From positions 6,775,501 through 6,839,500 of the forward strand of contig OU612074.1 of NCBI GenBank assembly GCA_914767715.1: 64,000 nucleotides of DNA, in the 5' to 3' direction. Of this stretch, positions 4,481 to 63,800 are shown piece by piece (within the stretch, counting starts at the first letter, position 1; the number at the start of each line of letters is the position of its first letter). A model generated the notes under the pieces. The model saw only the letters and a program-made list of their open reading frames with translations. It had not been told where the DNA came from and made no database searches. A program made the position numbers and the translations under genes. This DNA is from Membranipora membranacea. Taxonomy: Eukaryota; Bryozoa; Gymnolaemata; Cheilostomatida; Membraniporidae.

Positions 4481-4528
4481 GGTTAATAATTTAAGTAAGT
4501 TGAAAACAGCTGACTATTTTTGAATATC

Positions 4529-4996
4529 TTAATTTCTGTTTCTGTGAGCTGGAGATCTTTCTTGCTTGGGTGCTGGTCTTGGGCCTGCTGCGCTTCTCTT
4601 GTTTCTGTGAGCTGGTGATCTATCTTGCTTGGGTGCTGGTCTTGGTCCTGTTGCTCTTCTCTTGTTTCTGTGAGCTGGTGATCTATCTTGCTTGGGTGCT
4701 GGTCTTGGGCCTGCTGCGCTTCTCTTGTTTCTGTGAGCTGGTGATCTATCTTGCTTGGGTGCTGGTCTTGGGCCTGCTGCGCTTCTCTTGTTTCTGTGAG
4801 CTGGTGATCTATCTTGCTTGGGTGCTGGTCTTGGACCTGTTGCGCTTCTCTTGTTTCTGTGAGCTGGTGATCTATCTTGCTTGGGTGCTGGTCTTGGTCC
4901 TGTTGCGCTTCTCTTGTTTCTGTGAGCTGGTGATCTATCTTGCTTGGGTGCTGGTCTTGGGCCTGCTGCGCTTCTCTTGTTTCTGTGAGCTGGTGA
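4529..4996 (-). repeat. Untranslated remainder of the P1 63-bp array
   Basis: Seven further 63-bp units downstream of the premature TGA. They keep the sense frame open and end at RNRN-stop (TAA at 4531-4529). The intact reading frame after the stop suggests that the nonsense change is recent or was introduced by gene conversion. Confidence 0.7.
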
Positions 4997-5790
4997 TCAA
5001 TCTTGCTTGGGTGCTGGTCTTGGACCTGTTGCGCTTCTCTTGTTTCTGTGAGCTGGTGATCTATCTTGCTTGGGTGCTGGTCTTGGTCCTGTTGCGCTTC
5101 TCTTGTTTCTGTGAGCTGGTGATCTATCTTGCTTGGGTGCTGGTCTTGGTCCTGCTGCGCTTCTCTTGTTTCTGTGAGCGGGTGATCTATCTTGCTTGGG
5201 TGCTGGTCTTGGTCCTGATGCGCTTCTCTTGTTTCTGTGAGCTGGTGATCTATCTTGCTTGGGTGCTGGTCTTGGTCCTGTTGCGCTTCTATTGTTTCTG
5301 TGAGCGGGTGATCTATCTTGCTTGGGTGCTGGTCTTGGTCCTGTTGCTCTTCTCTTGTTTCTGTGAGCTGGTGATCTATCCTGCTCGGGTGCCTGTCTTG
5401 GTCCTGTTGCGCTTCTCTTGTTTCTGTGAGCTGGTGATCTTTCTTTCTTGGGTGCTGGTCTTGGTCCTCCTGTCCTCTCACTACCATTTTCTCTTGCTAC
5501 ATGGTCACCTGTTTGCTTTCTACCACCAAGTACAGCACCTAAAACATAGAACAGCTAACTCATAAACTGCAAGGCTTATGAGATAATTTTTAAAATTTCA
5601 TTTAGAATGCCTTGCTAATGGAACATTTTTTTCGTTTAAAGCGTTATTCTGTTCAACTCGAACAGCCATCAATTACAGCTCTGAATTAAATGGGAATACT
5701 CAAAAAAAACCAACTTATGCTGACATTCATAAAATACTCACTGGCACCAAGGATAGTGAAAACCAGGGCGATGAGGATCAACTTATTCAT
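4997..5790 (-). CDS. P1: tandem-repeat secreted peptide precursor, shortened by a premature stop
   Basis: Spliced minus-strand gene. The signal-peptide exon is 5742-5790 (MNKLILIALVFTILGA), with a GTGAGT donor at 5741-5736. The acceptor AG is at 5540-5539, and the array exon begins at 5538 with SAVLGGRKQTGDHVAREN. Each 63-bp unit then gives a 19-residue Pro/Arg-rich peptide ending PAHRN, followed by Lys-Arg, a classic prohormone-convertase site. An AGA-to-TGA change at 4999-4997 stops the frame in the eighth unit, so the predicted product is about 196 residues. Beyond it the same frame stays open for seven more units to the ancestral stop at 4531-4529. The product would still carry seven complete peptides, so the locus may be functional. 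Frame choice rests on splice phase and signal peptide; the other two open frames of the array lack both. Confidence 0.65.
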
Positions 5791-6053
5791 TCTACAAAAA
5801 CAATAACATGAGTAAAGAACAGACGCATCAGAGATAACATATTGTTCCAATTTTATTAAAATAATAATAATACTGATGTCAATTTGAAGGATAGATTCTC
5901 AAGAAAATAATAACTTGGTGTGTAGGCTTTGATCTGAATGGCTTGCTAATTATAAATGATAAATATACAATATTACTAGATAATTGACTACGCATACAAA
6001 TTTAACGATTGGTTCAGTATACACCAATATGTATATGAGTCCAGAAAACTTAC

Positions 6054-6147
6054 TTGCTCTGCGTTGCTGACTGGTCAAACAGAGATGTGTGCCTTCTCCA
6101 GATCTCTCCCAGCCTTTTATACGTCTATGATTCCTGTCCGGACTTCT
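6054..6147 (-). promoter_or_regulatory. P1 promoter and 5' UTR exon
   Basis: Reading on the minus strand, GAAGTCC (plus GGACTTCT, 6140-6147) is followed by a TATA box (TATAAAAGG, 6121-6113). The leader GGAGAAGGCACACATCTCT comes next, then exon end CAGAGCAA at 6054 with a GTAAGT donor (6053-6048). The arrangement is conserved at all six loci that keep this region. The intron to the signal-peptide exon is about 260 bp. Confidence 0.75.
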
Positions 6148-6179
6148 TTTGACATGATTCCTCAATTAGTTAATATTAA

Positions 6180-11579: not shown

Positions 11580-14500
11580 CAATGATGTTGGTCAAGTCGA
11601 TAACATATGGTTGAAAAGTAAAGTTTTGAATGAACTGAACTTCTCTTTAGATCTCAAATGTAACGGTTAAGAATTGTATGAAGCAGAAACTTTGTATCTT
11701 AGATTGTCTGTATGATATAAAAGGAAATGTTTATCACGAAAATTGAACTTGGTAGTGTTTTTAAATCCTCTATATATAAATGGAGGTGTTAAAAAATTGT
11801 TTATCTTATGCGCAAAAAGTGAAGTGAAATAACAAACAAGCTTAGGAAGAGGTAGGAGCTGTAATGATTGTGTAATGGATTCGGTTGGAATGAGATAATA
11901 TGTGATGTAATGCACATTTGCCATAATGCGTAAAGCCCGTTTTTGCAACAAAAATAATCTATTGAGGGCATTATTGCAGGACAAGTTGCCAATGATATGG
12001 ATACCATATATAAGCTGACAATAGATAAACTGGAAGTAAAATATGCGGGCACTTGCTATATCAAAGAAGTATCTCAAATTTTGAAGTAGGTAAACATTCC
12101 GTTGTACCTTTTTATATACATACTCTAGATCATGGGTGGGCAACCTTTTCTTGAAAAAGGCCACATTTTCTGCAGGCTCAACTCAAAAGGCCGCAACATA
12201 TCTTTCAAGGATAAGATTGAAACTGGACTAACAATTTTGGAACTTCCTATTTTGTTAATACTCAGATTTGTGTAAAGACTGCAGTATGTTGCAAGAACCA
12301 TTAACTCAGCAGAAATGTGGGTTTATCTTATCTTCTGGAGTTTTATGACGTCATTTTATCTCATGATTGGTTTTATATCTGTCTGTTTTTCATATGTATG
12401 GCAAAGGGCAGGGTGGGATGGGTGCTGTTGGGCTCTCCTAGCGGTAAAAATGTAAAAAGTACATAACGGTGCAGTTGTGGCGGAGAAAAAGTATTTTCGG
12501 AATATTTTTGGAATTCTTTGCGTCTTGTCATCATCTTCAGCTTACTGCGCCCACCCTCCTGCAAGGGGGCAATCTTTTGCAAATGGTTGTGAAATGAAAA
12601 ATGGAAAAATTCAGCCATACTGCAGGAGCACTTGTAATAAAGAGACTTTTTGATACAAATCTGCCTTTCGTACAAAATGACTGATTTGCAAAAAATACTA
12701 ATTGCTATTATCTTAGAGAACTTTGTAATTTTATCATCCAAATGTTACTGTTTTGTTTTATTTCGAAAGAAAAACACCTTGAGAGTCATTGGCACCAGTA
12801 CCAAAGTTATGATGATTTTGTGAAAAGTGGCTGGGGAAGCTTTGCTACATTGCAGGCTAGAGAAAGGCCACAATTTTGAAATATATAGTACTTTCAGAGC
12901 GCTATGCATGCTTGGTTCTCCACATATAGAAAGAGCAACCAAAATTGATGTGTAATATTTTTTTTAGGCATAAGGCTACAATTAGGCCGCAAAAGATTAC
13001 CCATTAGGCCGCACTGGCAAAAAGGCCGCAGGTTGCCCACAGCTGCTCTAGATGATCCTGCCATGAAAGCGAGTCATTCAACACAAAACCCAGAAGCCTT
13101 GTAGTTCTCTGTCTGTTTAGTTTTTCATGCCCTATGTACAGTTCCAGGTCATAAAGCGGATCTGAGATATTAAGTAGCATGTAATGAGATTTCTGAACAT
13201 TTATAACCATCCGTTTACGATTGCACCAATCCAAAATGCCACTTAAATCTTCAGATGCCTTTGCCTTTAGTTGCTGAAGGTTTTTATTAGATGACAGGAA
13301 CACTGTATCATCAGCATATGCATATGATGATGAGTCTGATTTTGATGAAGTTAATAAATCATTTATGAAGATGAGAAACAAAGTTGGTGCTAGGATTGAA
13401 CCTTGAGGGACCCCTATTGTGATAGGCAATCTACAAGATTCAATATTATTGAGTTTAACAAACTGCCTTCTGTCTATCAGAAAGGTGTCAAGAAGTTTTA
13501 ACATATTTTCTCCGATGCCGCAAGCCTTCAACTTAATGTGTAGTAAAACATTGGATACACAGTCAAATGCCTTTATAAAATCCAGAAAAAGTAATGTCAT
13601 AACATTTCCATTAATATTCTCCACCAAAAAGTCTGAACATTTTTTAAATAAACTGTCTGAACAAAAATGGCCTTTTCTAAATCCACATTGAAGCTCATGA
13701 ATGATTTTGTTTTTAGTGAGATATTCTTGCAGATGGTGATTTATGTGTTTCTCAAATATTTTTGAAAGAACAGCCAAGACTGAAATTGGTCTATAATTTG
13801 ATGGGTTATTTATATCCCCAGATTTATGTATTGGTGAAACTCGAGCTAGTTTCCAAGTTGAAGGGAACTGTCCTTTGCTTAAAACCCTGTTAAACATATC
13901 GGTGACAATATCCACAATATAAGGCCAAACAAGCTTCAACATCTTCACTGTAATTCTGTCAGGTCCTGTACTTTTACTATCAGGAATGTGGAACAATATT
14001 CTTGTACATGTGAAAGGGGTGAATTGTGGTATGTCTGTCAAATTATGTTAGGATACGGGAAATGTCATCTCATCCGTTACAACAAGGTTCTTTGTGATTG
14101 ATCTTGCAATGGATGTGAAATGGCTGTTAAATTGATCTGCACTCAAATTTGTCGCAGGGAAAGTCTCCTTCTTTTTATTCTTTAATACATCCCAAACAGG
14201 TTTTGTATTTCCTTTAGACTCTTTAATTGTATTAGAAATAGCTCTATTCTTCTTTTGTCTGATCATATTAGTGACATAATTTCGCTGTTTTTCATATCCT
14301 TCCCAATCACTGTTTTGTTTGAGTTGATCTCTGATTTTGATTTTCATTTTTACCTCATCATCCAACCATTTTGGAAGATTATGCGTTCATACAAAACGAG
14401 TCTTCTCAAACACGAGTTTTGATATAAGATGATTCAAATGGCTATAGAACTTCTCAAACATTGATATTGATATTTCATACAGCACGTAATCAAAGTTTTC

Positions 14501-17437: not shown

Positions 17438-19218
17438 TTAATTTTTGTTTCTGTGAGCAGGAGATCTTTCATGATTGGGTGCTGGTCTTGGGCCTGCTGC
17501 GCTTCTCTTGTTTCTGTGAGCTGGTGATCTATCTTGCTTGGGTGCTGGTCTTGGTCCTGCTGCGCTTCTCTTGTTTCTGTGAGCTGTTGATCTATCTTGC
17601 TTGGGTGCTGGTCTTGGTCCTGCTGCGCTTCTCTTGTTCCTGTGAGCTGGTGATCTATCTTGCTTGGGTGCCTGTCTTGGTCCTGATGCACTTCTCTTGT
17701 TTCTGTGAGCTGGTGATCTATCTTGCTTGGGTGCCTGTCTTGGTCCTGATGCACTTCTCTTGTTTCTGTGAGCTGGTGATCTATCTTGCTTGGGTGCTGG
17801 TCTTGGTCCTGCTGCGCTTCTCTTGTTCCTGTAAGCTGGTGATCTATCTTGCTTGAGTGCTGGGCTTGGTCCTCTTGCGCTTCTCTTGTTTCTGTGAACT
17901 GGTGATCTATCTTGCTTGGGTGCTGGTCTTGGTCCTGCTGCGCCTCTCTTGTTTCGGTGAGCTGGTGATCTTTCCTGCTTGGGTGCTGGTCTTGGTCCTG
18001 TTGCGCTTCTCTTGTTTCTGTGAGCTGGTGATCTATCTTGCTTGGGTGCCTGTCTTGGTCCTGATGCACTTCTCTTGTTTCTGTGAGCTGGTGATCTATC
18101 TTGCTTGGGTGCCTGTCTTGGTCCTGATGCACTTCTCTTGTTTCTGTGAGCTGGTGATCTAACTTGCTTGGGTGCTGGTCTTGGTCCTGCTGCGCTTCTC
18201 TTGTTCCTGTGAGCTGGTGATCTATCCTGCTTGGGTGCTGGTCTTGGTCCTGTTGCTCTTCTCTTGTTTCTGTGAGCTGGTGATCTATCTTGCTTGGGTG
18301 CTTGTCTTGGTCCTGCTGCGCCTCTCTTGTTCCTGTGAGCTGGTGATCTATCTTGCTTGGGTGCTGGTCTTGGTCCTGCTGCACTTCTCTTGTTTCTGTG
18401 AGCTGGTGATCTATCTTGCTTGGGTGCTGGTCTTGGTCCTGCTGCGCTTCTCTTGTTCCTGTGAGCTGGTGATCTATCTTGCTTGGGTGCTGGTCTTGGT
18501 CCTGATGCGCTTCTCTTATTTCTGTGAGCTGGTGATCTATCTTGCTTGGGTGCTTGTCTTGGTCCTGATGCGCTTCTCTTGTTTCTGTGAGCTGGTGATC
18601 TATCTTGCTTGGGTGCTGGTCTTGGTCCTGCTGCGCTTCTCTTGTTCCTGTGAGCTGGTGATCTATCTTGCTTGGGTGCTGGTCTTGGTCCTGCTGCGCT
18701 TCTCTTGTTCCTGTGAGCTGGTGATCTATCCTGCTTGGGTGCTGGTCTTGGTCCTGTTGCTCTTCTCTTGTTTCTGTGAGCTGGTGATCTATCTTGCTTG
18801 GGTGCTGGTCTTGGTCCTGCTGCGCCTCTCTTGTTTCGGTGAGCTGGTGATCTTTCCTGCTTGGGTGCTGGTCTTGGTCCTCCTGTCCTCTCACTACCAT
18901 TTTCTCTTGCTACATGGTCACCTGTTTGCTTTCTACCACCAAGTACAGCACCTAAAACATAGAACAGCTAACTCATAAACTGCAAGGCTTATGAGATAAT
19001 GTTTTAAATTTTATTTAGAATGCCTTGCTAATGGAAAAGTTTTCTCGTTTAAAGCTATTCAGTCTGTATGTTAATATGTTCAACTCGAACAGCCATCTAT
19101 TACAGCTCTGAATTAAATGGGAATCCTCAAAAAAAGACCAACTTATGCTGACATTCATAAAATACTCACTGGCACCAAGGATAGTGAAAACCAGGGCGAT
19201 GAGAATCAACTTATTCAT
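17438..19218 (-). CDS. P2: intact tandem-repeat secreted peptide precursor (23 units)
   Basis: Two coding exons on the minus strand. Exon 19170-19218 encodes the signal peptide MNKLILIALVFTILGA with a GTGAGT donor at 19169. Exon 18951-17438 follows the acceptor at 18953-18952. The join is phase 1 and gives SAVLGGRKQTGDHVAREN. I read every unit of the array and found no stop in this frame until TAA at 17440-17438, after RNKN. The predicted product is about 520 residues with 23 units of 21 residues (a 19-residue peptide plus Lys-Arg). Variation is concentrated in the first seven positions (SA[S/T/A/P]GPR[P/Q]); the APKQDRSPAHRN part is nearly fixed. No Gly precedes Lys-Arg, so C-terminal amidation is not expected. 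The array exon itself contains no ATG, so it only makes sense as spliced. Likely secreted and cleaved; activity unknown. Confidence 0.75.
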
Positions 19219-19421
19219 TCTACAAAAACAATAACATGAGTAAAGAACAGACGTATAAGAGATAACATATTGTTCCAATTTTATTAAAATAATAATAATA
19301 ATGATGTCAATTTGAAGGATAGATTCTCAAGATAATAATAACTTGATGTGTGAGCTTTGATAAACATATTTAATGATTGGTTCAGTATACAGGAATATGT
19401 ATAGGAGTTCAGAAAACTTAC

Positions 19422-19515
19422 TTGCTCTGCGTTGCTGACTGGTCAAACAGAGATGTGTGCCTTCTCCAGATCTCTCCCAGCCTTTTATACATCTATGATT
19501 CCTGTCCGGACTTCT
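19422..19515 (-). promoter_or_regulatory. P2 promoter and 5' UTR exon
   Basis: Minus strand: GAAGTCC motif (plus GGACTTCT, 19508-19515), TATA box (TATAAAAGG, about 19489-19481), the conserved leader with GGAGAAGGCACACATCTCT, and exon end at 19422 followed by GTAAGT (19421-19416). Confidence 0.75.
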
Positions 19516-23228: not shown

Positions 23229-23763
23229 TCATAAAATGAGCAATTTTAGCCTTTTAATGCTGTTTAATGTAATAGTCATCAGTTCAAACCTACACCATCT
23301 TAAGGATCTCGTCAGCAGCAACACATACATGGTAAATATGACCATATGATCATCTACCATCACATACACTAGAGAAGAGCTGCTGAAATTCAAGGATAGT
23401 ACACAAAGAGACAATTTATGCAATTGGCGCCATATTGACACTTTCGTACGCCCGACCTTTCATAACTCAGGTCAAAGAATCCCTACAATTATAAGTAGTA
23501 GGCTACCAGTGTCAAACCATGTCGACATTCCATACCAACAAAAGAGATACTCTAAACTAATAACAATACCCACATTCCAATCCATTGTGGATTATAAAAT
23601 AGATAGGGCCGGATCCACGAGTGTGAATGGGAGAGCAGGGGTTGCGGAAGCGCCTTGGTCGATCCCCCACTGTGGCTATGGCCAGCCGTTACTGACCGGC
23701 GTACAATGCCGGAACATTAGCTTTAGGTACATCAGCACAACAAGTCATCTAACCCTAATCTAA
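23229..23763 (+). pseudogene. Broken copy of the 9731-10252 open frame
   Basis: Nearly identical to 9731-10252, but with extra bases near 23339-23350 (ACCATATGATC region) that split the frame. Only the downstream part (23509-23763) stays open. The 23764-25091 interval below it repeats 10253-11579 and holds no supported gene. Confidence 0.5.
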
Positions 23764-31037: not shown

Positions 31038-31638
31038 TTAATTTTTGTTTCTGTGATCTGGAGATCTTTCATGCTTGGGTGCTGGTCTTGGGCCTGCTGC
31101 GCTTCTCTTGTTTCTGTGAGCTGGTGATCTATCTTGCTTGGGTGCTGGTCTTGGTCCTCTTGCGCTTCTCTTGTTTCTGTGAGCTTGTGATCTATCTTGC
31201 TTGGGTGCTGGTCTTGGTCCTCTTACGCTTCTCTTGTTTCTGTGAGCTGGTGATCTATCTTGCTTGGGTGCTGGTCTTGGTCCTCTTGCGCTTCTCTTGT
31301 TTCTGTGAGCTGGTGATCTATCTTGCTTGGGTGCTGGTCTTGGTCCTCTTGCGCTTCTCTTGTTTCTGTGAGCTGGTGATCTATCTTGCTTGGGTGCTGG
31401 TCTTGGTCCTGTTGCGCTTCTCTTGTTTCTGTGAGCTGGTGATCTATCTTGCTTGGGTGCCTGTCTTGGTCCTCTTGCGCTTCTCTTGTTTCTGTGAGCT
31501 GGTGATCAATCTTGCTTGGGTGCTGGTCTTGGTCCTGCTGCGCTTCTCTTGTTTCTGTGAGCTGGTGATCTATCTTGTTTGGGTGCTGGTCTTGGTCCTG
31601 CTGCGCTTCTCTTGTTCCTGTGAGCTGGTGATCTATCT
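31038..31638 (-). pseudogene. P3: 3' fragment of a peptide array
   Basis: About nine 63-bp units plus the normal array end (stop TAA at 31040-31038), with an AATAAA on the minus strand at 30902-30897. The array breaks off at about 31637, where it joins directly to the sequence that normally starts a unit. The array N-terminus, signal-peptide exon and promoter are all missing. It also carries TGA at 31508-31506, at the same Arg codon that is mutated in P1 and P5. No coding capacity is expected. Confidence 0.8.
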
Positions 31639-32966
31639 TAGCTTGATAGGATAAAATTGATTGAAATCACAGGTTCTCATGATTGCTTTCAGTGTGACAT
31701 TGACAAGAGGTTGGCAACCATGCTCATCTCTGGCTTTCAACTTAAAAAGCTTCTTGTAGATTTATATGTTTTTAACCCACACTTTTCAAATTTTCAACCC
31801 ACCCAATGTAGGAAAAAATTAGCCACATCAAAAATCTTGATCTGGAAAAAACATCAGTTTTCCATAAATTGATTAGGAATTTTAGTAATATTTTAATTGG
31901 CATTTTATAGGTTTGTTTTGACTGTTGAAATTGCTTGTAGGCTGTGGATGAGATGTATCATGAGGAATTCTTGGGCCCATGAGCTCTACCTTGATCAGTT
32001 TCCAATTCAAATGCAAAATCGTGTAAGACAGCCAACTAAAAGCTAACTGTACCTTAAACCAAGTGATACTAGGTAAGCAGCTTAACATCCTACCTCATCT
32101 TACATATATCAATCAGATATAGTATGATAATACTGCAAAAGGTATCACTGCCGCCTAGCTCAGGCTGGCTTCTCAGTCAACATTTTAACTGTCAGTAATC
32201 TGATAATATTGCTCTCTTCATTTCGACCTGACTTATTACGATCGTGCTACTCCGGTTTCCCCAATGTAGAATATATAGCTTTGAGAACAAACTCTTAAAC
32301 ATATGAAAAGACAACTCTGTATTTAAATAAAATATAAAAAGATAAATGTTTTGACCCACCCACAAATATATGAGGAATTTGAGGGAATGGGGTAAAGTGA
32401 TGTGAGGTACTAATAATGATTATGTGCTCAAACATTGGCCAAGGATGGGTAGTTATAAATGAAGTGCAGATAGTAATGACAACCAATTTTATAGAATTAC
32501 CTGGATGTGAATTCATCTGAGCAAACACATTTCGATCATATATGCTCAAGAACAGACACGCAGGTAAATCACGCCATATTTCAAATCCCGGTTGATGATA
32601 GAACTAAAGGTTTAGATTATAAATATCAGAAGCAGGCCAAGATGTCTTAGACTCAGAAACCAAAAGTTAACAGACACTAAAAACTTCGGAAAGTAAAATA
32701 TGAATTTCCAAAATTTACTGAGGCATTTCTGTTTTGTCTAAACTAAATGACAACAATCACATTGGGAGTGGGTATCATGGGTCACATCACCTGTATTCAA
32801 GAGGGGATAACTTAGACTGAGAGGAGGGTAGATAGTTGTTAGAAAGGGGAGGATGAATAAAGACTTACTATTATTAGAATTATATCATGTGATTAAGATA
32901 TAAGATTTGAAGTTGGTTGGTTTTGAAGTGAATTCAGTAGGCTGCTTAATTATGTTTGCTGTGAAG

Positions 32967-33108: not shown

Positions 33109-35063
33109 TTAATTTTTGTTTCTGTGATCTGGAGATCTTTCATGCTTGGGTGCTGGTCTTGGGCCTGCTGCACTTCTCTTGTTTCTGTGAGCTGGTGATC
33201 TATCTTCCTTTGGTGCTGGTCTTGGACCTGTTGCGCTTCTCTTGTTTCTCTGAGCTGGTGATCTATCCTGCTTGGGTGCCTGTCTTGGTCCTGTTGCTCT
33301 TCTCTTGTTTCTGTGAGCTGGTGATCTATCTTGCTTGGGTGCTGGTCTTGGTCCTGATACGCTTCTCTTGTTTCTGTGAGCTGGTGATCTATCTTGCTTG
33401 GGTGCTGGTCTTGGTCCTGTTGCGCTTCTCTTGTTTCTGTGAGCTGGTGATCTATCCTGCTTGGGTGCCTGTCTTGGTCCTGCTGAACTTCTCTTGTTCC
33501 TGTGAGCTGGTGATCTATCTTGCTTGGGTGCTGGTCTTGGTCCTGGTGCGCTTCTCTTGTTTCTGTGAGCTGGTGATCTATCTTGCTTTGGTGCTGGTCT
33601 TGGTCCTGATGCGCTTCTCTTGTTTCTGTGAGCTGGTGATCTATCTTGCTTGGGTGCTGGTCTTGGTCCTGCTGCGCTTCTCTTGTTTCTGTGAGCTGGT
33701 GATCTATCTTGCTTTGGTGCTGGTCTTGGTCCTGTTGCGCTTCTCTTGTTTCTGTGAGCTGGTGATCTATCCTGCTTGGGTGCCTGTCTTGGTCCTGCTG
33801 AGCTTCTCTTGTTCCTGTGAGCTGGTGATCTATCTTGCTTGGGTGCTGGTCTTGGTCCTGGTGCGCTTCTCTTGTTTCTTTGAGCTGGTGATCTATCTTG
33901 CTTGGGTGCTGGTCTTGGTCCTGATGCGCTTCTCTTGTTTCTGTGAGCTGGTGATCTATCTTGCTTGGGTGCTGGTCTTGGTCCTGCTGCGCTTCTCTTG
34001 TTTCTGTGAGCTGGTGATCTATCTTGCTTGGGTGCTGGTCTTGGTCCTGGTGCACTTCTCTTGTTTCTGTGAGCTGGTGATCTATCTTGCTTGGGTGCCT
34101 GTCTTGGTCCTGCTGCGCTTCTCTTGTTTCTGTGAGCTGGTGATCTATCTTGCTTGGGTGCCTGTCTTGGTCCTGCTGCGCTTCTCTTGTTTCTGTGAGC
34201 TGGTGATCTATCTTGCTTGGGTGCCTGTCTTGGTCCTGATGCGCTTCTCTTGTTTCTGTGAGCTGGTGATCTATCTTGCTTGGGTGCTGGTCTTGGCCCT
34301 GTTGCGCTTCTCTTGTTTCTTTGAGCTGGTGATCTATCTTGCTTGGGTGCTGGTCTTGGTCCTGCTGCGCCTCTCTTGTTTCTGTGAGCTGGTGATCTAT
34401 CTTGCTTGGGTGCTCGTCTTGGTCCTGCTGCGCCTCTCTTGTTTCTGTGAGCTGGTGATCTATCTTGCTTGGGTGCTGGTCTTGGTCCTGGTGCACTTCT
34501 CTTGTTTCTGTGAGCTGGTGATCTATCTTGCTTGGGTGCCTGTCTTGGTCCTGCTGCGCTTCTCTTGTTTCTGTGAGCTGGTGATCTATCTTGCTTGGGT
34601 GCTGGTCTTGGTCCTGTTGCGCTTCTCTTGTTTCTGTGAGCTGGTGATCTATCTTGCTTGGGTGCTTGTCTTGGTACTGTTGCGCTTCTCTTGTTTCTGT
34701 GAGCTGGTGATCTATCTTGCTTGGGTGCTGGTCTTGGTCCTCCTGTCCTCTCACTACCATTTTCTCTTGCTACATGGTCACCGGTTTGCTTTCTACCACC
34801 AAGTACAGCACCTAAAACATAGAACAGGTAACTCATAAACTGCAAGGCTTATGAGATATTTTTTAAAATTTCATTTAGAATGCCTTGCTAATGGAAACAT
34901 TTTTTGGTTTAGAGTGTTATTCTGTTCAACTCGAACAGCCATCAATTACAGCTCTGAATTAAATGGGAATCCTCAAAAAAAACCAACTTATGCTGACATT
35001 CATAAAATACTCACTGCCACCAAGGATAGTGAAAACCAGGGCGATGAGGATCAACTTATTCAT
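33109..35063 (-). CDS. P4: intact tandem-repeat secreted peptide precursor (26 units)
   Basis: The longest member. Signal-peptide exon 35015-35063 (MNKLILIALVFTILGG; donor GTGAGT at 35014-35009) joins array exon 34811-33109 (acceptor at 34813-34812) in phase 1. The predicted product is about 583 residues: signal peptide, spacer AVLGGRKQTGDHVARENG, then 26 units. Most read SA[T/A/S/P]GPR[P/Q] then APKQDRSPAHRN and Lys-Arg; the last unit ends APKHERSPDHRNKN-stop. Charge per peptide is about +3, with 4 Pro. The layout matches multicopy secreted precursors such as neuropeptides or bee apidaecins, and the PRP motif recalls proline-rich antimicrobial peptides. That is an analogy, not homology. Blocks of units recur in the same order, showing recent internal duplication. 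Confidence 0.8.
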
Positions 35064-35329
35064 TCTACAAAAACAATAACATGAGTTGTAAAGAACAGAC
35101 GCATCAGAGATAATATATTATTCCAATTTCATTAAAATAATAATAATAATGATGTCAATTTGAAGGATAGATTCTCAAGAAAATAATCACTTGGTGTGTA
35201 GGCTTTGATCTGAATGGCTTGCTAATTATAAATGATAAATATACAATATTACTAGATAATTGACTACGCATACCAATTTAATGATTGGTTCAGTATACAC
35301 CAATATGTATAGGAGTTCAGAAAACTTAC

Positions 35330-35423
35330 TCGCTCTGCGTTGCTGACTGGTCAAACAGACATGTGTGCCTTCTCCAGATCTCTCCCTGCCTTTTATACGT
35401 CTATGACTCCTGTCCGGACTTCT
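35330..35423 (-). promoter_or_regulatory. P4 promoter and 5' UTR exon
   Basis: Minus strand: GAAGTCC (plus GGACTTCT, 35416-35423), TATAAAA (plus 35391-35397), conserved leader with the GGAGAAGGCACACATGTCT variant, and exon end at 35330 before GTAAGT (35329-35324). Confidence 0.75.
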
Positions 35424-38400: not shown

Positions 38401-38560
38401 AACTATACTTGTGTTTTAATTTGTTTCAGTTCCGTGGTATGGTATCCTCTACTTTTCAATACTGTCAGGTAAAGGTGGCAATGACAGGTGCGACATTATG
38501 CTCTTTTTTCACTTTCGCAAAGAAGGAGAAAGATTGATGTGATGTTTATGAGTTTCTCAA
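35430..38560. other. Upstream flank of P4 and unique spacer, no gene
   Basis: To 37482 this is the duplicated upstream flank. Then comes an AAT-rich simple repeat with a short direct repeat of CACATAGACCTACTAATAAT type (37480-37550), and unique sequence. Two diverged pieces about 170 bp apart (37803-37845 and 37985-38030, both with GAGTTACGxCCATTAGAAG-like cores) resemble each other. No gene is supported. Confidence 0.5.
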
Positions 38561-38585
38561 ATTTCCAGGCCAGTAAAAGTAGTTG

Positions 38586-42294: not shown

Positions 42295-42382
42295 CGGAAG
42301 TCCCGAAAATAATGTATAAAAAGCATGGGGGGATCTGGAGAAGGCACACATCTCTGTGCAGTCAGTCAGCAACGGAGATCAA
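42295..42382 (+). promoter_or_regulatory. P5 promoter and 5' UTR exon
   Basis: CGGAAGTCCC at 42295-42304, TATA box TATAAAAAG at 42315-42323, leader GGAGAAGGCACACATCTCT, and exon end at 42382 before GTAAGT (42383-42388). The promoter looks intact even though the coding part is broken. Confidence 0.7.
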
Positions 42383-42404
42383 GTAAGTTTTCTGAACGCA
42401 CAGT

Positions 42405-42672: not shown

Positions 42673-43832
42673 ATGAATAAAGTTGATTCTCATCACCCTG
42701 GTTTTCACTATCCTTGGTGCCAGTGAGTAATAAAACATCTTATAATGGTCAGCTATAGTTGGCTTTTTCTCATAGTATTTCTACTAACTCAGAGCTGTGC
42801 TTGATGACCTTCATGTTGATCAGGATAGCGCTACATACTGAATAGCTTCAAAGAATCATTTTTTTCGATTAGCAAGCCACTCTCAATAAAATTCAAATGA
42901 ATTATCTTATATCCTTGCAGTTTATGCGTTAGCTGTTCTATGTTCAAGGTGCTGTACTTGGTGGCAAGAAGCAAACAGGAAACCATCTAGCAAGAGAAAA
43001 TGGTAGTAAGAGAACCGGAGGACTAGGACCAGCACCCGAGCAAGATAGATCACAAGCTCACAGAAACAAGAGAAGCGCATCAGGACCAAGACCAGCACCC
43101 AAGCAAGACAGATCACCAGCTTACAGGAACAGGAGAAGCGCATCAGGACCAAGACCAGCACCCAAGCAAGACAGATAACCAGCTTACAGGAACAAGAGAA
43201 GCGCATCAGGACCAGGACCAGCACCCAAGCAAGATAGATCACCAGCTCACAGAAACAAGAGAAGCGCATCAGGACCAAGACCAGCACCCAAGCAAGACAG
43301 ATCACCAGCTTACAGGAACAAGAGAAGCGCATCAGGACCAAGACCAGCACCCAAGCAAGATAGATCACCAGCTTACAGGAACAAGAGAAGCGCATCAGGA
43401 CCAAGACCAGCACCCAAGCAAGATTGATCACCAGCTTACAGGAACAAGAGAAGCGCCTCAGGACCAAGACCAACACCCAAGCAAGATAGATCACCAGCTC
43501 AAAGAAACAAGAGAAGCGCATCAGGACCAAGACCAGCACCCAAGCAAGACAGATCACCAGCTTACAGGAACAAGAGAAGCGCATCAGGACCAGAACCAGC
43601 ACCCAAGCAAGATAGTTCACCAGCTTACAGAAACAAGAGAAGCGCATCAGGACCAAGACCAGCACCCAAGCAAGACAGATCACCAGCTTACAGGAACAAG
43701 AGAAGCGCATAAAAACCAAGACCAGCACCCAAGCAAGATAGATCACCAGCTCACAGAAACAAGAGAAGTGCATCAGGACCAAGACCAGCACCCAAGCAAG
43801 ACAAATCACCAGCTTACAGAAACACAAATTAA
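42673..43832 (+). pseudogene. P5: disabled tandem-repeat peptide precursor
   Basis: Plus-strand copy. The signal exon starts at ATG 42673, but an extra A (AATAAAGTTG against AACAAGTTG in P6) shifts the frame after three codons, destroying the signal peptide. The array exon begins at 42949 after an AG acceptor. In the ancestral frame it reads AVLGGKKQTGNHLAREN and then about 13 units, but stops lie at 43176-43178 (TCA to TAA), 43425-43427 (AGA to TGA) and 43710-43712 (TCA to TAA). The ancestral end is at 43830-43832. Units here mostly have PAYRN instead of PAHRN. With a frameshift and three nonsense changes this is a pseudogene. The poly(A) signal AATAAA remains at 43971. Confidence 0.85.
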
Positions 43833-48912: not shown

Positions 48913-49005
48913 GGAAGTCCGAACAGAATTTGTAGATGTATAAAAAGCTGGGGGGATCTGGAGAAGGCACACATCTCTCTGTAGACAGTCAGCAACAGAG
49001 ATCAA
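48913..49005 (+). promoter_or_regulatory. P6 promoter and 5' UTR exon
   Basis: GGAAGTCC at 48913-48920, TATAAAAAG at 48949-48957, leader GGAGAAGGCACACATCTCT, and exon end at 49005 followed by GTAAGT. Confidence 0.8.
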
Positions 49006-49220
49006 GTAAGTTTTCTTGTCTATATATGTACGATTTCAACCATTCATTACATTTGTATGCATAGTGAAGTATCAAGTTTTATTCTCTCCTAATAATCTCA
49101 TGAATGCGCCTATCAGATCAAAGCCTACACATAGCTTATCAAGGTCTTGAAAATCTTTTCATGCAACAATCTGTTATCTCTGATTCTTAGGTTCCTAACT
49201 CATGTTAATCTCTTTGTAGA

Positions 49221-50759
49221 ATGAACAAGTTGATTCTCATCACCCTGGTTTTCACTATCATTGGTGCCAGTGAGTAATAAAATAGCTTATAATGGTCAGC
49301 TACAGTTGACTTTTTCTCGAAGTATTCTCTATTAACTCAGAGCTGTGCTTGATGACTATTCATGTTGATCAGTATAGCGCTGTAGACTTATTACCTTCAA
49401 CCAAGAAAATAGTTTAGTTTAGCAATTCACGCTAAATAAAGTTTTAAACATATCCTAAAAGCCTGGCAGTTTTTGAGTTCGAAGTTCTATGTTTCAGGCG
49501 CCGTACTTGGTGGTAGGAAGCAAACAGGAAACCATGTAGCAAGAGAAAATGGTATTGAGAGGACAGGAGGACTAGGACCAGCATCCAAACAAGATAGATC
49601 ACCAGCTCACAGAAACAAGAGAAGCGCAAGAGGAACAAGACCAGCACCAAAGCAAGATAGATCACCAACTCACAGAAACAAAAGAAGCGCATCAGGACCA
49701 AAACAGGCACCCAAGCAAGATAGATCACCAGCTCACAGAAACAAGAGAAGCCCAAAAGGAATAACACCGGGACACAGATACAAGAGAAGTGCATCGGGCC
49801 GAAGACCAGCACCCAAGAAAGATAGATCACCAGCTCACAGAAACAAGAGAAGCCCAAAGGGAATCAGACCAGGACACATATACAAGAGAAGTGCATCGGG
49901 ACCAAGACCAGCACCCAAGAAAGATAGATCACCAGCTCACAGAAACAAGAGAAGCCCAAAAGGAATAAGACCAGGACACAGATACAAGAGAAGTGCATCG
50001 GGACCAAGACCAGCACCCAAGAAAGATAGATCACCAGCTCACAGAAACAAGAGAAGCCCAAAAGGAATAAGACCAGGACACATATACAAGAGAAGTGCAT
50101 CAGGACCAAGACCAGCACTTAAGCAAGATAGATCACCAACTCACAGAAACAAGAGAAGCCCAAAAGGAATAAGACCAGGACACAGATACAAGAGAAGTGC
50201 ATCGGGACCAAGACCAGCACCCAAGAAAGATAGATCACCAGCTCACAGAAACAAGAGAAGCCCAAAAGGAATAAGACCAGGACACAGATACAAGAGAAGT
50301 GCATCGGGACCAAGACCAGCACCCAAGAAAGATAGATCACCAGCTCACAGAAGCAAGAGAAGCCCAAAAGGAATAAGACCAGGACACAGATACAAGAGAA
50401 GTGCATCGGGACCAAGACTAGCACCCAAGATAGATAGATCACCAGCTCACAGAAACAAGAGAAGCCCAAAAGGAATAAGAACAGGACACATATACAAGAG
50501 AAGTGCATCAGGACCAAGACCAGCACTTAAGCAAGATAGATCACCAACTTACAGAAACAAGAGAAGCGCAAAAGGAACAAGACCAGAACCCAAGCAAGAT
50601 AGATCACCAGCTCACAGAAACAAAAGAAGTGCATCAGGACCAATACAGGCACCAAAGCAAGATAAGGCACCAAACCAAGGTAGATCACAAGCTCACAGAA
50701 ACAAGAGAAGCGCAACAGGATTAAGACTTCCTTGTTGCAAGCCGATACACTTTTTTTAG
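49221..50759 (+). CDS. P6: intact precursor with two alternating peptides
   Basis: Exon 49220-49269 begins at ATG 49221 (MNKLILITLVFTIIGA; donor GTGAGT at 49270). Exon 49498-50759 follows an AG acceptor at 49496-49497, and the phase-1 join gives SAVLGGRKQTGNHVARENG. The predicted product is about 436 residues. After three 19-residue units the array changes to a higher-order repeat of 34 residues (102 bp): a 19-mer (SASGPRPAPKKDRSPAHRN), Lys-Arg, an 11-mer (SPKGIRPGHRY or ...HIY), Lys-Arg. There are eight 11-mers and thirteen 19-mers. It ends with an odd tail SATGLRLPCCKPIHFF-stop that contains the only two Cys. The 11-mer aligns to the 19-mer with its middle eight residues (APKQDRSP) removed, so it probably arose by a 24-bp deletion and then diverged. 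Secretion and Lys-Arg cleavage are inferred. Confidence 0.8.
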
Positions 50760-56097: not shown

Positions 56098-56198
56098 TTA
56101 ATAATCACTGAAGAACCTTTACTGTGTGTCCGGAACAAGTTATTCAACAATGGATTCTAATTGAATGTATTTTCTTATTTTCATTTAGAAACAAGAAT

Positions 56199-58929: not shown

Positions 58930-59795
58930 TAAGGCAACTACATTGCACTGCACATTGCACTGCACATTGCACTGCACATTGACTGCGGCTGGATACCACA
59001 AATCATTGTTATGATAGGAGATACGATGTACGATGTAGGATGCAATTTAAAGTGTTGCCAAGAAAGGGTACAACAAACCTAAAGAATACTAGAACACTTG
59101 TGATCAGCGGTAGGCTTATAAATATTTGAGCATAAAATTGCTCTATATTTATCATTATATACATGTTGACACTGTAGTGCTTTGACATTAATTTTTAAGT
59201 AGGTGATTTTCAAATCATGAAACATTTGAATGTGACTGGTTTTCAAACATCATCGGTCAAATCTGTATTATCACTTCTCATCTGGAACATCATAATAGGA
59301 CCTGAAAACACAATATATACCCCTATCTGATGCTCCCCCTCCTAAAGCTGTTGATCAAAAAAATGGTGACGTTTTAGCGAATGGAACTTTATTATCACAA
59401 ATGTCCTGAAGAAGTCCTGGGTACAAGTTCACAAAATCGACAGAAGCTGGTTTGACAGCCAGGTTTCAAAAATTCCCGTGTACCAGCAACAGAAATGAAA
59501 ATGTTGAAGGCTAGCTTGGTGGCAGGGCAGTGAAGCATTTTAAAATGAGAGGCTCAGAGACCAGATTTATAGTGCATGGAGGCAAATCATGGACACAAGC
59601 TTTGGGATACCCAGGGTCTGAGGGTGTTTTTGCACATCAGGGAGAAGATCTTTGGATAATGTTTGATACAAAAAAATATATATATATATATTTTTTTTTT
59701 TATATATATATATTAATATCAGAACATTAACTCTGGTTCCCCAGCAGCATGACGTGGGGCATTTTTAGTGAGCCGATTACACCACAGGTAATGGT
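58930..59795. repeat. Repeat B, inverted copy of 52.0-53.45 kb sequence
   Basis: Contains a 14-bp minisatellite (CACTGCACATTG-type, about three units, 58945-58985), a 45-codon frame MRGSETRFIVHGGKSWTQAL (plus strand, about 59540-59670) also present near 52200-52320 on the minus strand, and a TA/T run (59672-59712). It ends at CCACAGGTAATGG (about 59795), where it cuts into S3. No recognised element family. Confidence 0.6.
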
Positions 59796-60114
59796 AATAC
59801 GCTAAATAATAAGTACTATAGGATAATAAGAACATGTCCAGAACTTTCCCATGCTGTGGTGTTATTGCAAATATAATGTCCTGTAAAAAGGATCAGTCTT
59901 TGGCAGATCTTAATTGCTAGAACTAAAAGGTTTGAATCTAACAATATCATCGTGATAGACTTGACACATTCACATCAGTCATCTTCCACTGTTTTTTCCC
60001 AATAACGCTAAAAGTAAAAGATGCATCACATCAATCCCAAAACAGAAGCTCTGATGTATTTACTGGTTTCAGAACAGACAATAAAAAAAAAACAGAAGAA
60101 GAAGCTAAACTCAC

Positions 60115-60157
60115 CAATCGAAGCCATGATCAAGGAAATATGTGCAAGTACCTTCAT
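60115..60157 (-). pseudogene. S3: signal exon of a truncated small peptide gene
   Basis: Exon 60157-60115 encodes MKVLAHISLIMASI with a good GTGAGT donor (60114-60109), and an upstream promoter and leader exist near 60.79-60.71 kb. The intron homology runs only to about 59796, where repeat B begins. The exon with the mature peptide is missing, so no complete product is possible. Confidence 0.75.
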
Positions 60158-60258
60158 ATTCTTGTTTCTAAATGAAAATAAGAAAATACATTCAATTAGG
60201 ATCCATAATTGAATAACTTGTTCCAGACACACAGTAAAGGTTCTTCAGTGATTATTAA

Positions 60259-60660
60259 TGGCTGGTGCACATTGTCCCAGACCACCATCCCAGATAGCCA
60301 TCCCAGTCAATGTGAATATGAAAATGACCCCAACCCAGACTGTCTGGGTCCGCCTGGGACAGTATCTGGAAAGTGCGAAAGCGTCTAACGTTCCCGATGT
60401 TATCCCAGACGGACCCAGACTCATTTGGCATCTGGGTGCTATGTGAATCAGACATTTGGATGATTTGGGATCATCTGGGTCGATCTGGGTCGATCTGGGA
60501 AGATCCTAAACAATGTGAACATCATCCCAGCACTATCCCAGACAAAAACCTAATTGCTCATCTGGGATGAATTTTGCAATGTGAACGTACCACTGGGACA
60601 ATCTGGGATAGGCATCTGGGATGGCATCCCAGTGTCATCTGGGAAAATGTGAACCAACCA
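60259..60660. mobile_element. 402-bp TTAA-flanked MITE, second copy
   Basis: Inverted copy of 55696-56097 within the S3 first intron, flanked by TTAA at 60255-60258 and 60661-60664. The S1 locus retains the empty site (TTAA at 46168-46171), confirming the target and the borders. Confidence 0.85.
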
Positions 60661-63434
60661 TTAAAAAAAAGACATGATAAGTTTATGGGGTGTCGATACT
60701 TACTATTGGTTGCTAAGACTTGTTATGACTGTCGCTATGAGCTTGAGCTTCTTTACCTGTGATGCCATAATCATTATCTTCCTATATACTTGTTGTGATG
60801 GCTGGAAGTTTGTCAATTCAAATTATTAAGCTAAAGGATATAACAAATAATTGCTTATGAATTATGAACTTTGATTTCCTGTTCCTATTTATGTTATGTT
60901 ATGTTAGTGCAAGTACAATTCATCATCAAACAATGGGCCACTTATAATACCATAAGTACCATTATGATAATCAATAATGGTGACAGATCCTTATAAGGTT
61001 TTTTCATGATGATCGCAGTTCAGCCGAACTATCCTCCACGAAAACAACAAATACCATATAAAACCTATGAACCTTTTTATTAATTTGAAGATTTCCTATT
61101 CGTTTCCACAATGGTGCAATGATTAATTTCTCCAGTAATATACAATTAATGAGCATACTTCCTCTTTCTTGGCATTGGTATCCTGCTATTTCTTTTTTTC
61201 ACCCAAAGCTCATGAACTTGTGTCAAATGACTGCATTGTAAACATAATTCAAACCAAACAACGAAGTTCTGAAACAAAAATGGACAATGAATATACTAAC
61301 TTGTCATCATTAATATGGGTTAAGAGTCAGATTATTACCCTTACTCTGTGATCACATTGTACATTGTCTTAGGTACATAACTGAGGTCAGTAGCCTCTTA
61401 ACCTCATTAGATGCAATACATTGAATACACTATAAACAGCTTTGTTTTCTTTATAATCTCATGGAAAATGCTCTATTCGTTTTAATTGCTATGGTACGAT
61501 TCATTATTCAAAAAGAATTTGACTGGCAGGCCGTATTATCAGGGTTAAATTGGATTTAAATTTACAGACACCAAAAATAATTGATGACGCTTGATCTATT
61601 GGATAGAGAAGAGCGGCAAATGAGAGGAATGACGAAACAATAAAACAGTCTGCCTTGAGAGTTAATATATTTCTACTATAATGACATCTTCCTGAATAAT
61701 GAAAATAATAAGTATCTGAGATTATTTCACAGGATTTACTATGACGAAAATACTGATGAGAGACGCGGCTTCAACAAAACCACCACCAAGATGCAATTAT
61801 AATACAATACCACCATACTACCACACATTTTTACTTGTTTCTCATTAATTTTGTCGTCTAAGATTGTGATACCAACAGATAAAGACACAAACCTGATGCG
61901 TAACACTTTTGGGATGGTTAGTTATAGTTTTATGTAGTGGTTTGTAGATGAGAGGGTACAGGCGTTGAATCCTCCCTGTAGAGTTTGATGCTGCTCAAAT
62001 ACTCTATGTGATGTATTCCTCCACAGAGATGGCCAATGAGCTTCGTTTTAAGCCTGGGACCACAATCTGGCTCTAACATTCTGCACAGAAGGCTGATAGG
62101 CTGGAGAATCTTTCAAGTAGATCTGAACTTCAGAATCGGATAAGCGCTATAATAAAGATGTATCAGTAAATTAATCAATCATTACATCATTAACTAATTT
62201 CCTCTTCTGTACACAATAATGATTGTTTTATTATGGTTTTGCCAATCAGTGGGTAAGATAAAACACATATTTACCAGGCTGGTTTCTCCGCTATAGTTTT
62301 TCAATCCTGTTTGATAAATTCAGGCAACGTTGAATGCTTTTTTATCAAACACCAAACTGCTCTCTACCATCTTAGGAGTGTCTCCCATTGGAAAAATTGA
62401 CTTTCTTTTAAACTGCTGCTATTTTGCAAGCTCAAGCACTAAGCAAGTTAATTTGGGTTTCCACCCTACATTATATTCAGCCATTACATTAATAGTATAT
62501 TAACATCGACATGGAAAATTAAATGTCTTTCTGGTAATCAATCCAAATTTGCGAAATCTTAGTCTTCAAATTTGCAATCAAGCAAACAAAAATGTGAAAA
62601 ATTCATCATTGCAACAGTTGTGTTTCTAAATTCATATTAATCAAGCTATTTTTAGTAGATTGAATTTTTATTGGCTAAGCCCAACACTGCATTTACAAGA
62701 TTCCTAGCAAAAGAAATTTTTTTACTGACAATCGGATCAGGCTATATTTGCTTTAAAATTTAGAAAAAATTGGATTCATAGTTAAACTGCTAGCTTCAAA
62801 TATTATCTACGTTCGAAGATATTGTTTCATTATTTTAACAAATTGGATCCAGCACAATAGTACTCTTGGACTCATAATTGGACGGACGCTAATTCTGGAG
62901 TACTTAAAATGGCAGTACTGGCAGACAGAGTATGTGACATAGATATGAGCTGTTCCCTTGTTCTCAGACAATTGGCTGACAAAGTGCAAAAACCAACACT
63001 TTCTTCTAAGTAAGATAGCGGGCCTGTAGAAGATGAATAGTTTAAAATATGATCATCACACAAAAGTCAAATTCTGTCACAGTAGCTAGTTTAATGAAAA
63101 ATCATAGAATCAGGTTGGTTGGTGCAGCCCATGTTGTGTGCTAAGATATATTTTATATACTAGGTCCGATCCAAAACCCGGGTGTTATGATTTATATAGA
63201 CAAGGCTTGGCGGACAGGAATCAGGATGTCCATTGTTATTAGATAGGATGAGGTCACGTTGTTCATGGAAAGAGATAACATTATGTTTAAGGATTTCCTA
63301 TCTTTCATTTATCTAACAAAAGAATGGCATCTATAATGATATTTGAAAAAAGTAAAAATTAGCTAGTCCCTGTAAATACTCATCAAAGTCATTTCCATTT
63401 TGCTTCCATCTTCCATTAAGGATATCTTGTCAAA

Positions 63435-63527
63435 GGAAGTCCGAACAGAATTTGTAGATGTATAAAAAGCTGGGGGGATCTGGAGAAGGCACACATCTCT
63501 CTGTAGACAGTCAGCAACGGAGATCAA
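63435..63527 (+). promoter_or_regulatory. P7 promoter and 5' UTR exon
   Basis: GGAAGTCC at 63435-63442, TATAAAAAG at 63461-63469, leader GGAGAAGGCACACATCTCT, and exon end at 63527 before GTAAGT. Confidence 0.8.
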
Positions 63528-63751
63528 GTAAGTTTTCTGGCCCCATATATATATATATATTACGATTTTAACCAATCTTTACATTTGTATACTTAGTGAA
63601 GTATCAAGTTTTATTGTCTCCTGATAATTCATGAATGCGCCTATCAGATCAAAGCCTACACATAGCCTATCAAGATCTTGAGAATCTTTTCATGCAACAA
63701 TCTGTTATCTCTGATTCTTAGGTTCCTAACTCATGTTAATCTCTTTGTAGA

Positions 63752-63800
63752 ATGAACAAGTTGATTCTCATCACCCTGGTTTTCACTATCCTTGGTGCAA
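63752..63800 (+). CDS. P7: signal-peptide exon of a further precursor, cut by the window edge
   Basis: ATG 63752 follows an AG acceptor at 63749-63750 and encodes MNKLILITLVFTILGA, with a GTGAGT donor at 63801. The intron matches that of P6 up to the window end (49464 equivalent), so the array exon should start about 30 bp beyond position 64000. Intactness of P7 cannot be judged here. Confidence 0.75.

Follow-up and report, generated by a model that had tools for sequence, protein, structure and literature searches.

The genes of a cluster that spans 133 kb of a bryozoan genome (C10:6742-6875 kb) very probably code for secreted prepropeptides, and these precursors are probably cut at R-X-K-R into separate peptides. 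The best explanation that we can offer for the whole, to which we give slightly less than an even chance, is a secreted cationic peptide arsenal for defence.

Organization of the gene cluster

The window, a stretch of 64,000 nucleotides, captures part of the cluster, which runs well past the window ends. In full the cluster comprises 12 genes and one fragment. Ten of the 12 full loci are intact, with in-frame splice models, and the MNKL.. leader is encoded in frame at 11 of the 12 and frameshifted at the twelfth. The full layout consists of a TATA box, a short leader exon, a signal exon of 49 or 50 bases, a phase-1 intron and an array exon. The first-pass annotation had seven window loci sharing this layout, which is complete at five. 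Six loci have a TATA/leader and a signal exon in the window, the sixth (G9, 63 kb) with its 5' part inside and its array just outside, and the seventh (G5b, 31 kb) is an array fragment with no match to leader, signal exon or acceptor. The loci at 4-6 kb (G4) and 42-43 kb (G7) are broken, the former by a TGA and the latter by a frameshift and stops. The features are listed here, with leader positions that are BLAST matches (6134-6048, 19502-19416, 35410-35324, 42314-42388, 48933-49011 and 63455-63533).

6048..6134, minus strand: G4 TATA box, short non-coding leader exon and donor (blastn, 95% to the leader of the 33 kb gene)
5742..5790, minus strand: G4 signal-peptide exon MNKLILIALVFTILGAS (49 nt, phase 1 donor)
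4529..5538, minus strand: G4 array exon, 15 units; TGA at 4997-4999 breaks the KR (Lys-Arg) frame after 196 codons, and the frame resumes to 4529
19416..19502, minus strand: G5 TATA and leader exon
19170..19218, minus strand: G5 signal-peptide exon
17438..18951, minus strand: G5 array exon, intact, 23 units, 520-aa precursor; AATAAA ~136 nt past the stop
31038..31645, minus strand: G5b array fragment, 9 units; 1 stop in the KR frame
35324..35410, minus strand: G6 TATA and leader exon
35015..35063, minus strand: G6 signal-peptide exon
33109..34811, minus strand: G6 array exon, intact, 26 units, 583-aa precursor; AATAAA ~136 nt past the stop
42314..42388, plus strand: G7 TATA and leader exon
42673..42722, plus strand: G7 signal-exon remnant with one extra base (frameshift)
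42949..43829, plus strand: G7 pseudogene array exon, 13 units, 3 KR-frame stops (end approximate)
48933..49011, plus strand: G8 TATA and leader exon
49221..49269, plus strand: G8 signal-peptide exon
49498..50759, plus strand: G8 array exon, intact, 436-aa precursor; 8 11-mers (SPKGIRPGHRY type) among 19-mers; AATAAA ~180 nt past the stop
63455..63533, plus strand: G9 TATA and leader exon
63752..63800, plus strand: G9 signal-peptide exon
C10:6839529-6843010: G9 array exon, 29 bases past the window end; 1176-aa precursor

The annotated array exon of 63-bp units behind a phase-1 intron was borne out, the tandem 63-bp arrays having a KR frame that is joined in frame to the signal exon. Unit number ranges from 6 to about 39 per gene. 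The maximum of 26 peptides per precursor first proposed is right for the window, where G6 has the most units (26), and is exceeded beyond it by G1 (30) and G9 (39). Eight of the ten intact genes have an AATAAA no more than 250 nt past the stop, and long same-strand duplicates in the cluster are ~92-98% identical.

The unit statistics below refer to the 204 units of the ten intact C10 genes, including three of the 42 G9 units that fall on or past the end of the G9 reading frame (39 are counted as far as 6842950) and are probably untranslated; 37 units of G4, G5b and G7 and nine of a second contig, C7, were tabulated apart. Whole-genome counts are lower bounds, with 150 of 173 candidates scored. 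Contig C7 holds one array of nine units, all nine ending in KR, that has no signal exon; a leader some 3 kb from it has a signal exon but no array. Variants in the C7 array include 10 synonymous changes where 5.6 are expected. Array and leader are treated as remnants and excluded from the gene counts.

Predicted peptides and cleavage sites

The ten intact precursors contain 226 KR sites, up to 62 in one precursor, and 208 of the 226 conform to R-X-K-R, the furin consensus, so that the annotated secreted multicopy precursors cut at Lys-Arg are well supported by sequence and comparison, and more strongly than was claimed. The 18 remaining sites comprise all 13 that follow a 12-mer, where Arg four places before the cut is found in 0 of 13, and three of the 16 that follow 11-mers, the other 13 being R-X-K-R. 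Cutting at every site would delimit 216 internal peptides, 80 of them distinct, and none of the 216 ends in Gly, the amidation signal.

The commonest 19-mer is SAAGPRPAPKQDRSPAHRN (40 of 204 units), with Pro at four of 19 residues (21%), and SASGPRPAPKQDRSPAHRN, put forward at first as the type peptide, proved to be a minor form (4 of 204). Residue 7 of the unit is Pro in 145 of the 204 and Gln in 52, and Gln abolishes the PRP motif. The main 19-mer is without large hydrophobic or aromatic residues; the four commonest 19-mer forms have GRAVY values of -1.70 to -1.94, and the net charge of the 19-mer is about +3. The genes at 49-51 kb (G8) and 63 kb (G9) also encode 11- and 12-residue peptides that alternate with the 19-mer, and the 11-mer was probably born through a 24-base in-frame deletion.

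The conserved half of the 19-mer is the C-terminal one, KQDRSPAHRN. Among 126 distinct units the cleavage motif R18-N19-K20-R21 shows 30 synonymous versus 13 amino-acid changes, and residues 1-9 show 54 versus 200; unit copies are not independent in these motif counts, and the synonymous changes in the motif fall nearly all at R18 and K20, with none at R21, which has seven amino-acid changes (some in the last unit).

Proposed mechanism and alternative functions

The signal peptide MNKLILIALVFTILGASA, judged by eye, would on our reading be removed by cleavage after A-S-A according to the usual -3/-1 rule. A furin-type proprotein convertase would then cut after R-N-K-R in the secretory pathway and a carboxypeptidase trim the Lys-Arg, so that each precursor would give rise to some 5 to 61 short cationic peptides, probably disordered and without amidation. 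The convertase P domain has 17 matches in the genome, all 17 over the Pfam cut-off and grouped into 13 places, and furin-type Cys-rich repeats were recognized by eye near four of the six P-domain places fetched; since convertases are general animal enzymes, their presence discriminates little. With less certainty, we suggest that the peptides may be produced in large amounts and secreted to the outside as a host-microbe defence arsenal, in which dosage might be set by unit and gene number and variety might arise in the N-terminal half of the unit.

A defence role for the peptides is itself a tentative assignment, to which we lean with distinctly less than even confidence. We argue that the amplified genes and units, the pseudogenes and the N-terminal diversification suit a defence family over a conserved hormone. 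The earlier preference for a defence peptide has some support in that Pro at four of 19 residues, together with a single PRP motif of the kind some proline-rich antimicrobials carry, agrees with the composition of that class, and is weakened by the lack of a large hydrophobic or aromatic residue and by the failure to find homology. To our knowledge, known proline-rich antimicrobials, contrary to the main 19-mers here, are not without such residues.

A neuropeptide or peptide-hormone precursor, in which the 19-mers would be non-amidated signals for a cell-surface receptor and the many copies would serve amplification, is a less likely but serious alternative. The conserved C-terminal half is in its favor, as this is the half that receptor ligands usually conserve. 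None of the 216 peptides is amidatable, however, and a 12-gene cluster with pseudogenes and fast unit turnover is unusual for a neuropeptide. A signal peptide followed by repeats between dibasic sites is among the patterns used to search for multicopy neuropeptides in the excerpts of PMC6188537 and PMC11521371, and the former also has multicopy peptides without amidation, but by eye the bryozoan units bear no likeness to the 14 multicopy types named in that excerpt. Our best guess is that defence is likelier than a neuropeptide function.

It is rather improbable that the product is an uncut, repetitive secreted structural protein of an adhesive, cuticle or skeleton matrix, with Lys-Arg simply part of a basic repeat. 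The arrays are indeed very long (precursors to 1176 aa), strongly homogenised and of pI 12, the 12-mer sites are without the Arg four places before the cut, and invertebrate adhesives include basic, proline-rich repeats. Against this, the furin consensus is present at most sites and even at 13 of 16 of those after the newer 11-mers, and the cleavage motif taken as a whole shows more synonymous than amino-acid changes.

More improbable still is a role in reproduction, with multicopy precursors supplying egg or sperm factors, or in a toxin-like secretion. Sperm-activating peptides in other animals come from multicopy precursors, and fast N-terminal change with repeated gene duplication, both seen here, is common in reproductive and toxin-like genes, but the sequence indicates no target.

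Coding frame and conservation

The weakest reading, a satellite-like repeat that is open by chance and no gene, can be set aside with little hesitation: high-identity tandem repeats do stay open in several frames (at the 14 array loci, 13 on C10 and one on C7, the +1 frame is open in six and one reverse-strand frame in nine) and pN/pS does not single out one frame in the leader part, but exon islands, splice sites and TATA are conserved in 12 loci and one frame is held across units of three lengths. Across the array, 11 of the 14 loci have an open KR frame and none has an open +2 frame. In the 3315 nt of the G9 array inside the reading frame, the KR frame has no stop versus 24 and 39 in the other forward frames and is the sole open frame of six. 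Each locus keeps a single frame across its units, the listed spacings being multiples of three despite the mixture of 63-, 39- and 42-nt units.

The predicted exons are islands of conservation against the introns. In the 5 x 5 gene pairs compared between the two clades of genes, the signal CDS is 95.5% identical and the first 75 nt of the array exon 92.8%, versus 83.1% for the leader, 72.6% and 72.9% for introns 1 and 2 and 69.4% upstream. For the signal/pro-region, the KR frame gives a pN/pS of 0.71 and the wrong frames 0.57 and 0.59; as the KR value is no lower, exon conservation there is not visibly at the amino-acid level.

Variants were tested first in eight genes and, separately, C7 (G8 and G9 excluded), and second in all 14 loci and then in 11. 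In the ten intact loci and C7 we observed one stop-creating variant in the KR frame versus 5.4 expected (P about 0.015), and 6 versus 6.6 and 7 versus 7.7 in the other two frames, a test that is partly circular because the intact loci were picked by the KR frame; over all 14 loci the KR frame has 3 versus 6.1 expected (P 0.115).

Searches for relatives

The annotated view that no described family has this sequence is consistent with the lack of a Pfam, protein-set or meaningful structure match, although such negatives are weak for a repetitive, intron-containing animal gene. In Pfam the G6 array exon matched no family, G8 gave one unrelated match below the cut-off and eight N-terminal sequences gave none. 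Against a set of 5.8 billion proteins none of the 8000 candidates scored for the G5 precursor reached E 10, and none of the 13 for the eight N-terminal sequences reached E 1. A control search with a neighbouring receptor gene returned one match, 98% identical, on a 1508-base contig, so that DNA of the same or a close species is present in that database; the negatives nevertheless do not prove that relatives are lacking, since genes of this kind are fragmented in such databases by their repeats and introns. Solved structures gave a single chance-level match to a ribosomal protein (E 0.55), and a further search of them returned no match; of six peptide strings sought in literature text one was printed, once, in a paper that by its title concerns bacterial secretion.

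Genome of origin

Silaffin/glassin-type biosilica proteins are likewise secreted, cationic, repeated and cut from a precursor; this reading was dropped because the genome is of bryozoan type, not that of a diatom or sponge. The genome carries a cluster of five Hox genes that includes a Lox5 parapeptide, which led to the rejection of a sponge origin; the content and layout of the cluster fit cheilostome bryozoans. We read individual homeodomains as Dfd-like, Post2-like and Gbx-like; the first gene of the cluster is a 47-residue match only, with no assignment by sequence. In the excerpt of PMC10675955, cheilostome bryozoans have pb, Dfda, Lox5 and Post2 together in three genomes, with Lox4 joining in one and Dfdb elsewhere. 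Xenoturbella has 1+3+1 Hox genes in the excerpt of PMC11521371, but a Xenoturbella origin was rejected as well, because the Lox5 parapeptide is said to be absent from Xenacoelomorpha in that of PMC5431905 and the Hox genes fit cheilostomes.

Significance and comparison with known systems

Few gene-encoded bryozoan peptides are known to us. Provided that they are expressed and their products cut as proposed, the genes would define an undescribed animal peptide family and provide an unusually clear record of multicopy-precursor evolution, with 6 to ~39 units, ten working and three broken copies adjacent, a conserved motif beside a fast N-terminal half, and a deletion-made peptide. More speculatively, and with the odds against it, this may be the bryozoan lineage's own recently expanded arsenal, in which furin-cut precursors each release many (to ~60) cationic peptides, SPKGIRPGHRY was born within the array by in-frame deletion and then amplified, RTKGIIPGHRIY may derive from SPKGIRPGHRY, and invention, dosage and delivery all proceed through tandem-repeat turnover in one exon. 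The 19-mers and 11/12-mers are short enough for synthesis.

Among known systems, the precursors resemble the multicopy peptides of xenacoelomorphs, as excerpted from PMC6188537, in having a signal peptide and repeats bounded by dibasic sites, and share by eye no motif with the 14 neuropeptide types named there; they differ in the lack of an amidation Gly in 216 peptides, the 12-gene cluster and the up to 62 KR sites. They are also like insect apidaecin-type precursors, in which many near-identical short proline-rich peptides are encoded per precursor; according to the excerpt of PMC11678341, apidaecin has three precursor genes, with repeats of 11, 3, 2 and 2 in four forms, and proline-rich antimicrobial peptides have 14-49% proline, a range that includes the 21% of SAAGPRPAPKQDRSPAHRN. 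Unlike apidaecin, the bryozoan peptides have no homology found and a main 19-mer without large hydrophobic or aromatic residues, and their R-X-K-R adjoins the peptides directly, where apidaecin has a separating oligopeptide.

Organization of the precursor cluster

We surveyed an assembly of 339 Mb in 18 contigs, in which the window lies at C10:6775501-6839500 on the contig carrying the cluster of predicted secreted precursors. The repeat arrays of the window (small coordinates and kb values are window positions) are as follows.

Repeat arrays in the window
~4.5, 17, 31, 33 and 43 kb: five 63-bp arrays, 92-95% match (Tandem Repeats Finder)
49.6-50.7 kb: mixed 63/102-bp array (Tandem Repeats Finder)
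31038-31645: G5b, an array without 5' parts

BLAST with the leader, signal exon and acceptor of the gene at 33 kb gave six matches each for leader and signal exon in the window; over C10:6725501-6889500 both numbers rise to twelve. The first-pass annotation had described seven loci of shared layout; a leader and a signal exon are present at six of these, while the seventh locus, the G5b array, lacks these 5' parts. Among the twelve full loci, G1-G12, those touching the window are G4-G9. The cluster consists of two halves arranged head to head, with G1-G6 reading from the minus strand and G7-G12 from the plus strand, and the 5' regions fall into the same two groups in an unrooted tree.

Sequences within, around and beyond the cluster
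38552-40878: pieces of a P-element-like transposon, namely a THAP domain scoring slightly under the Pfam cut-off and TNP-like RNase H sequence, between G6 and G7, that is, between the divergent halves
13004-14047 and 26483-27831: LINE-type reverse transcriptase fragments in segmental duplicates, with an RVT_1 match for the first
C10:6745922-6748396, outside the window: longer open reverse transcriptase copy, 825 aa
9716-10252 and 23350-23763: repeated open frame GRAGVAEAPWSIPH, common to the duplicated segments and probably mobile-element sequence
C10:6888863-6889840: single-exon rhodopsin-type receptor near the cluster, with DKC where such receptors usually have DRY
C10:1-2500: GC-rich subrepeats at the contig start
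C7:11390719-11395063: two family remnants that complement each other, one an array without signal exon, the other a leader and signal exon without array
C7:11383107-11383577: caspase-domain frame close to these remnants

Gene models and tests of coding

The signal exon is 49 nt long and ends in phase 1, and splicing it to the array exon would yield open precursors in ten genes. The precursor of G4 meets a stop after 196 codons, and G7 carries a frameshift and stops. In each of the five intact minus-strand genes the precursor begins with MNKLILIALVFTILG(A/G)SAVLGGRKQTGDHVARENGSERTGG, followed by the first unit. An AATAAA lies 134-246 nt 3' of the stop in eight of the ten intact genes, and is absent from that stretch in G3 and G11.

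Predicted precursor length in residues (signal plus array exon)
G1 667; G2 478; G3 596; G5 520; G6 583
G8 436; G9 1176; G10 253; G11 233; G12 190

Because an open frame within a repeat is cheap, we put the gene model to the test. Between the minus- and plus-strand groups, identity was 95.5% in the signal coding sequence, 92.8% at the start of the array exon and 83.1% in the leader, whereas the introns (72.6 and 72.9%) and upstream DNA (69.4%) were much less alike than these predicted exons. Through the arrays of 14 loci we counted 5 stops in the frame with Lys-Arg (KR frame) versus 42 and 237 in the +1 and +2 frames; one reverse-strand frame was mostly open too, with 12 stops and 9 of 14 loci open. 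Stop-creating variants in the KR frame numbered one against 5.4 expected (P ~0.015) when C7 was pooled with the ten intact loci, a selection made by the KR frame itself, and three against 6.1 expected (P 0.115) in all 14 loci, and the depletion was confined to this frame.

Among 126 distinct units, 30 of the 43 codon changes at R18-N19-K20-R21 were synonymous, 29 of them at R18 and K20, versus 54 of 254 at residues 1-9; R21 alone showed no synonymous and seven amino-acid changes. Two results count against the model: the pN/pS of the signal plus pro-region is 0.71 in the right frame but 0.57 in one wrong frame and 0.59 in the other, and synonymous variants within the units of eight genes were in slight excess only (22 versus 18.6 expected). 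On balance we regard the exons as genuine and constrained; that the constraint acts on the protein is likely, but is evident mainly at the cleavage motif.

Predicted peptides

The ten intact precursors hold 226 Lys-Arg sites, 208 of which are R-X-K-R, the furin consensus. Cuts at every site would release 216 internal peptides, 80 of them distinct and 183 of them 19-mers; none has a C-terminal Gly, so amidation would be impossible for all. The commonest 19-mer, SAAGPRPAPKQDRSPAHRN, has four prolines and no large hydrophobic residue, and the mean net charge of the 19-mers over 204 units is +3.2. Variation falls at residues 3 (A/S/T/G/P/R), 7 (P/Q) and 11 (Q/K), while K10, R13, P15, R18, N19 and K20 are retained in 201-202 of the 204 units.

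Average masses of predicted peptides (Da)
SAAGPRPAPKQDRSPAHRN: 2013.2
SASGPRQAPKQDRSPAHRN: 2060.2
SASGPRPAPKKDRSPAHRN: 2029.2
SPKGIRPGHRY: 1267.4
RTKGIIPGHRIY: 1410.7

In G8 and G9 the 19-mer is interspersed with 11- and 12-mers. Aligned so as to leave a single 24-nt deletion relative to the 63-nt unit, the 39-nt unit SPKGIRPGHRYKR matched it at 29 of 39 positions, and since the best of 500 shuffles reached 23 it probably derives from the longer unit; the 42-nt unit gave 25 of 42 in the same test, at the limit, the best shuffle also reaching 25. Present in G9 as 13 copies of identical DNA, the 42-nt unit is, by its sequence, recently amplified.

Processing and role

The anatomy of the precursor implies both secretion, which the signal peptide would direct, and cleavage at Lys-Arg by a convertase. 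Convertase P domains gave 17 matches at 13 places in the genome, and furin-type Cys-rich repeats were seen by eye close to four of the six places examined; the proprotein-convertase family is apparently enlarged in this genome.

Bulk production, gene turnover and charge would favour a role in defence. The peptides may instead be signals, as the dibasic sites and the conserved C-terminal half of the peptide would suit. That the arrays encode a structural protein left uncut is less probable, since 13 of the 16 newer 11-mers retain the furin site, although the 12-mer retains Lys-Arg alone: of the 18 sites that are not R-X-K-R, 13 follow the 12-mer RTKGIIPGHRIY, at every one of its copies, and 3 are among the 16 that follow 11-mers.

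Hox genes

A homeodomain search gave 19 matches in the genome, including a compact Hox cluster of five homeoboxes on one strand within 61 kb (C1:21407689-21468413) and a second Dfd-like gene, 83% identical to the homeodomain query (C2:9374027-9374200). KLTGP after a 92% homeodomain match is the lox5-parapeptide, described in PMC5431905 as a lophotrochozoan and platyhelminth signature. Cluster content and the separate Dfd-like gene match the layout that PMC10675955 gives for cheilostome bryozoans, in which a further Dfd-like gene sits on a different chromosome from the cluster and one of the three genomes has Lox4 among the clustered genes. We assign the genome to the bryozoans on these grounds with fair confidence.

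Relation to known systems

The precursor sequences matched no Pfam family above cut-off and nothing in a very large protein set; solved structures gave one chance-level match (E 0.55), and a further structure search none. Six peptide strings were sought in a collection of papers, and one was printed, once, under a title with a bacterial context. Multicopy antimicrobial precursors exist in insects (PMC11678341), and multicopy neuropeptides in xenacoelomorphs (PMC6188537). The tests made showed no relationship of the bryozoan sequences to those of either group, but in both cases the layout is of the same kind as that of the bryozoan cluster.
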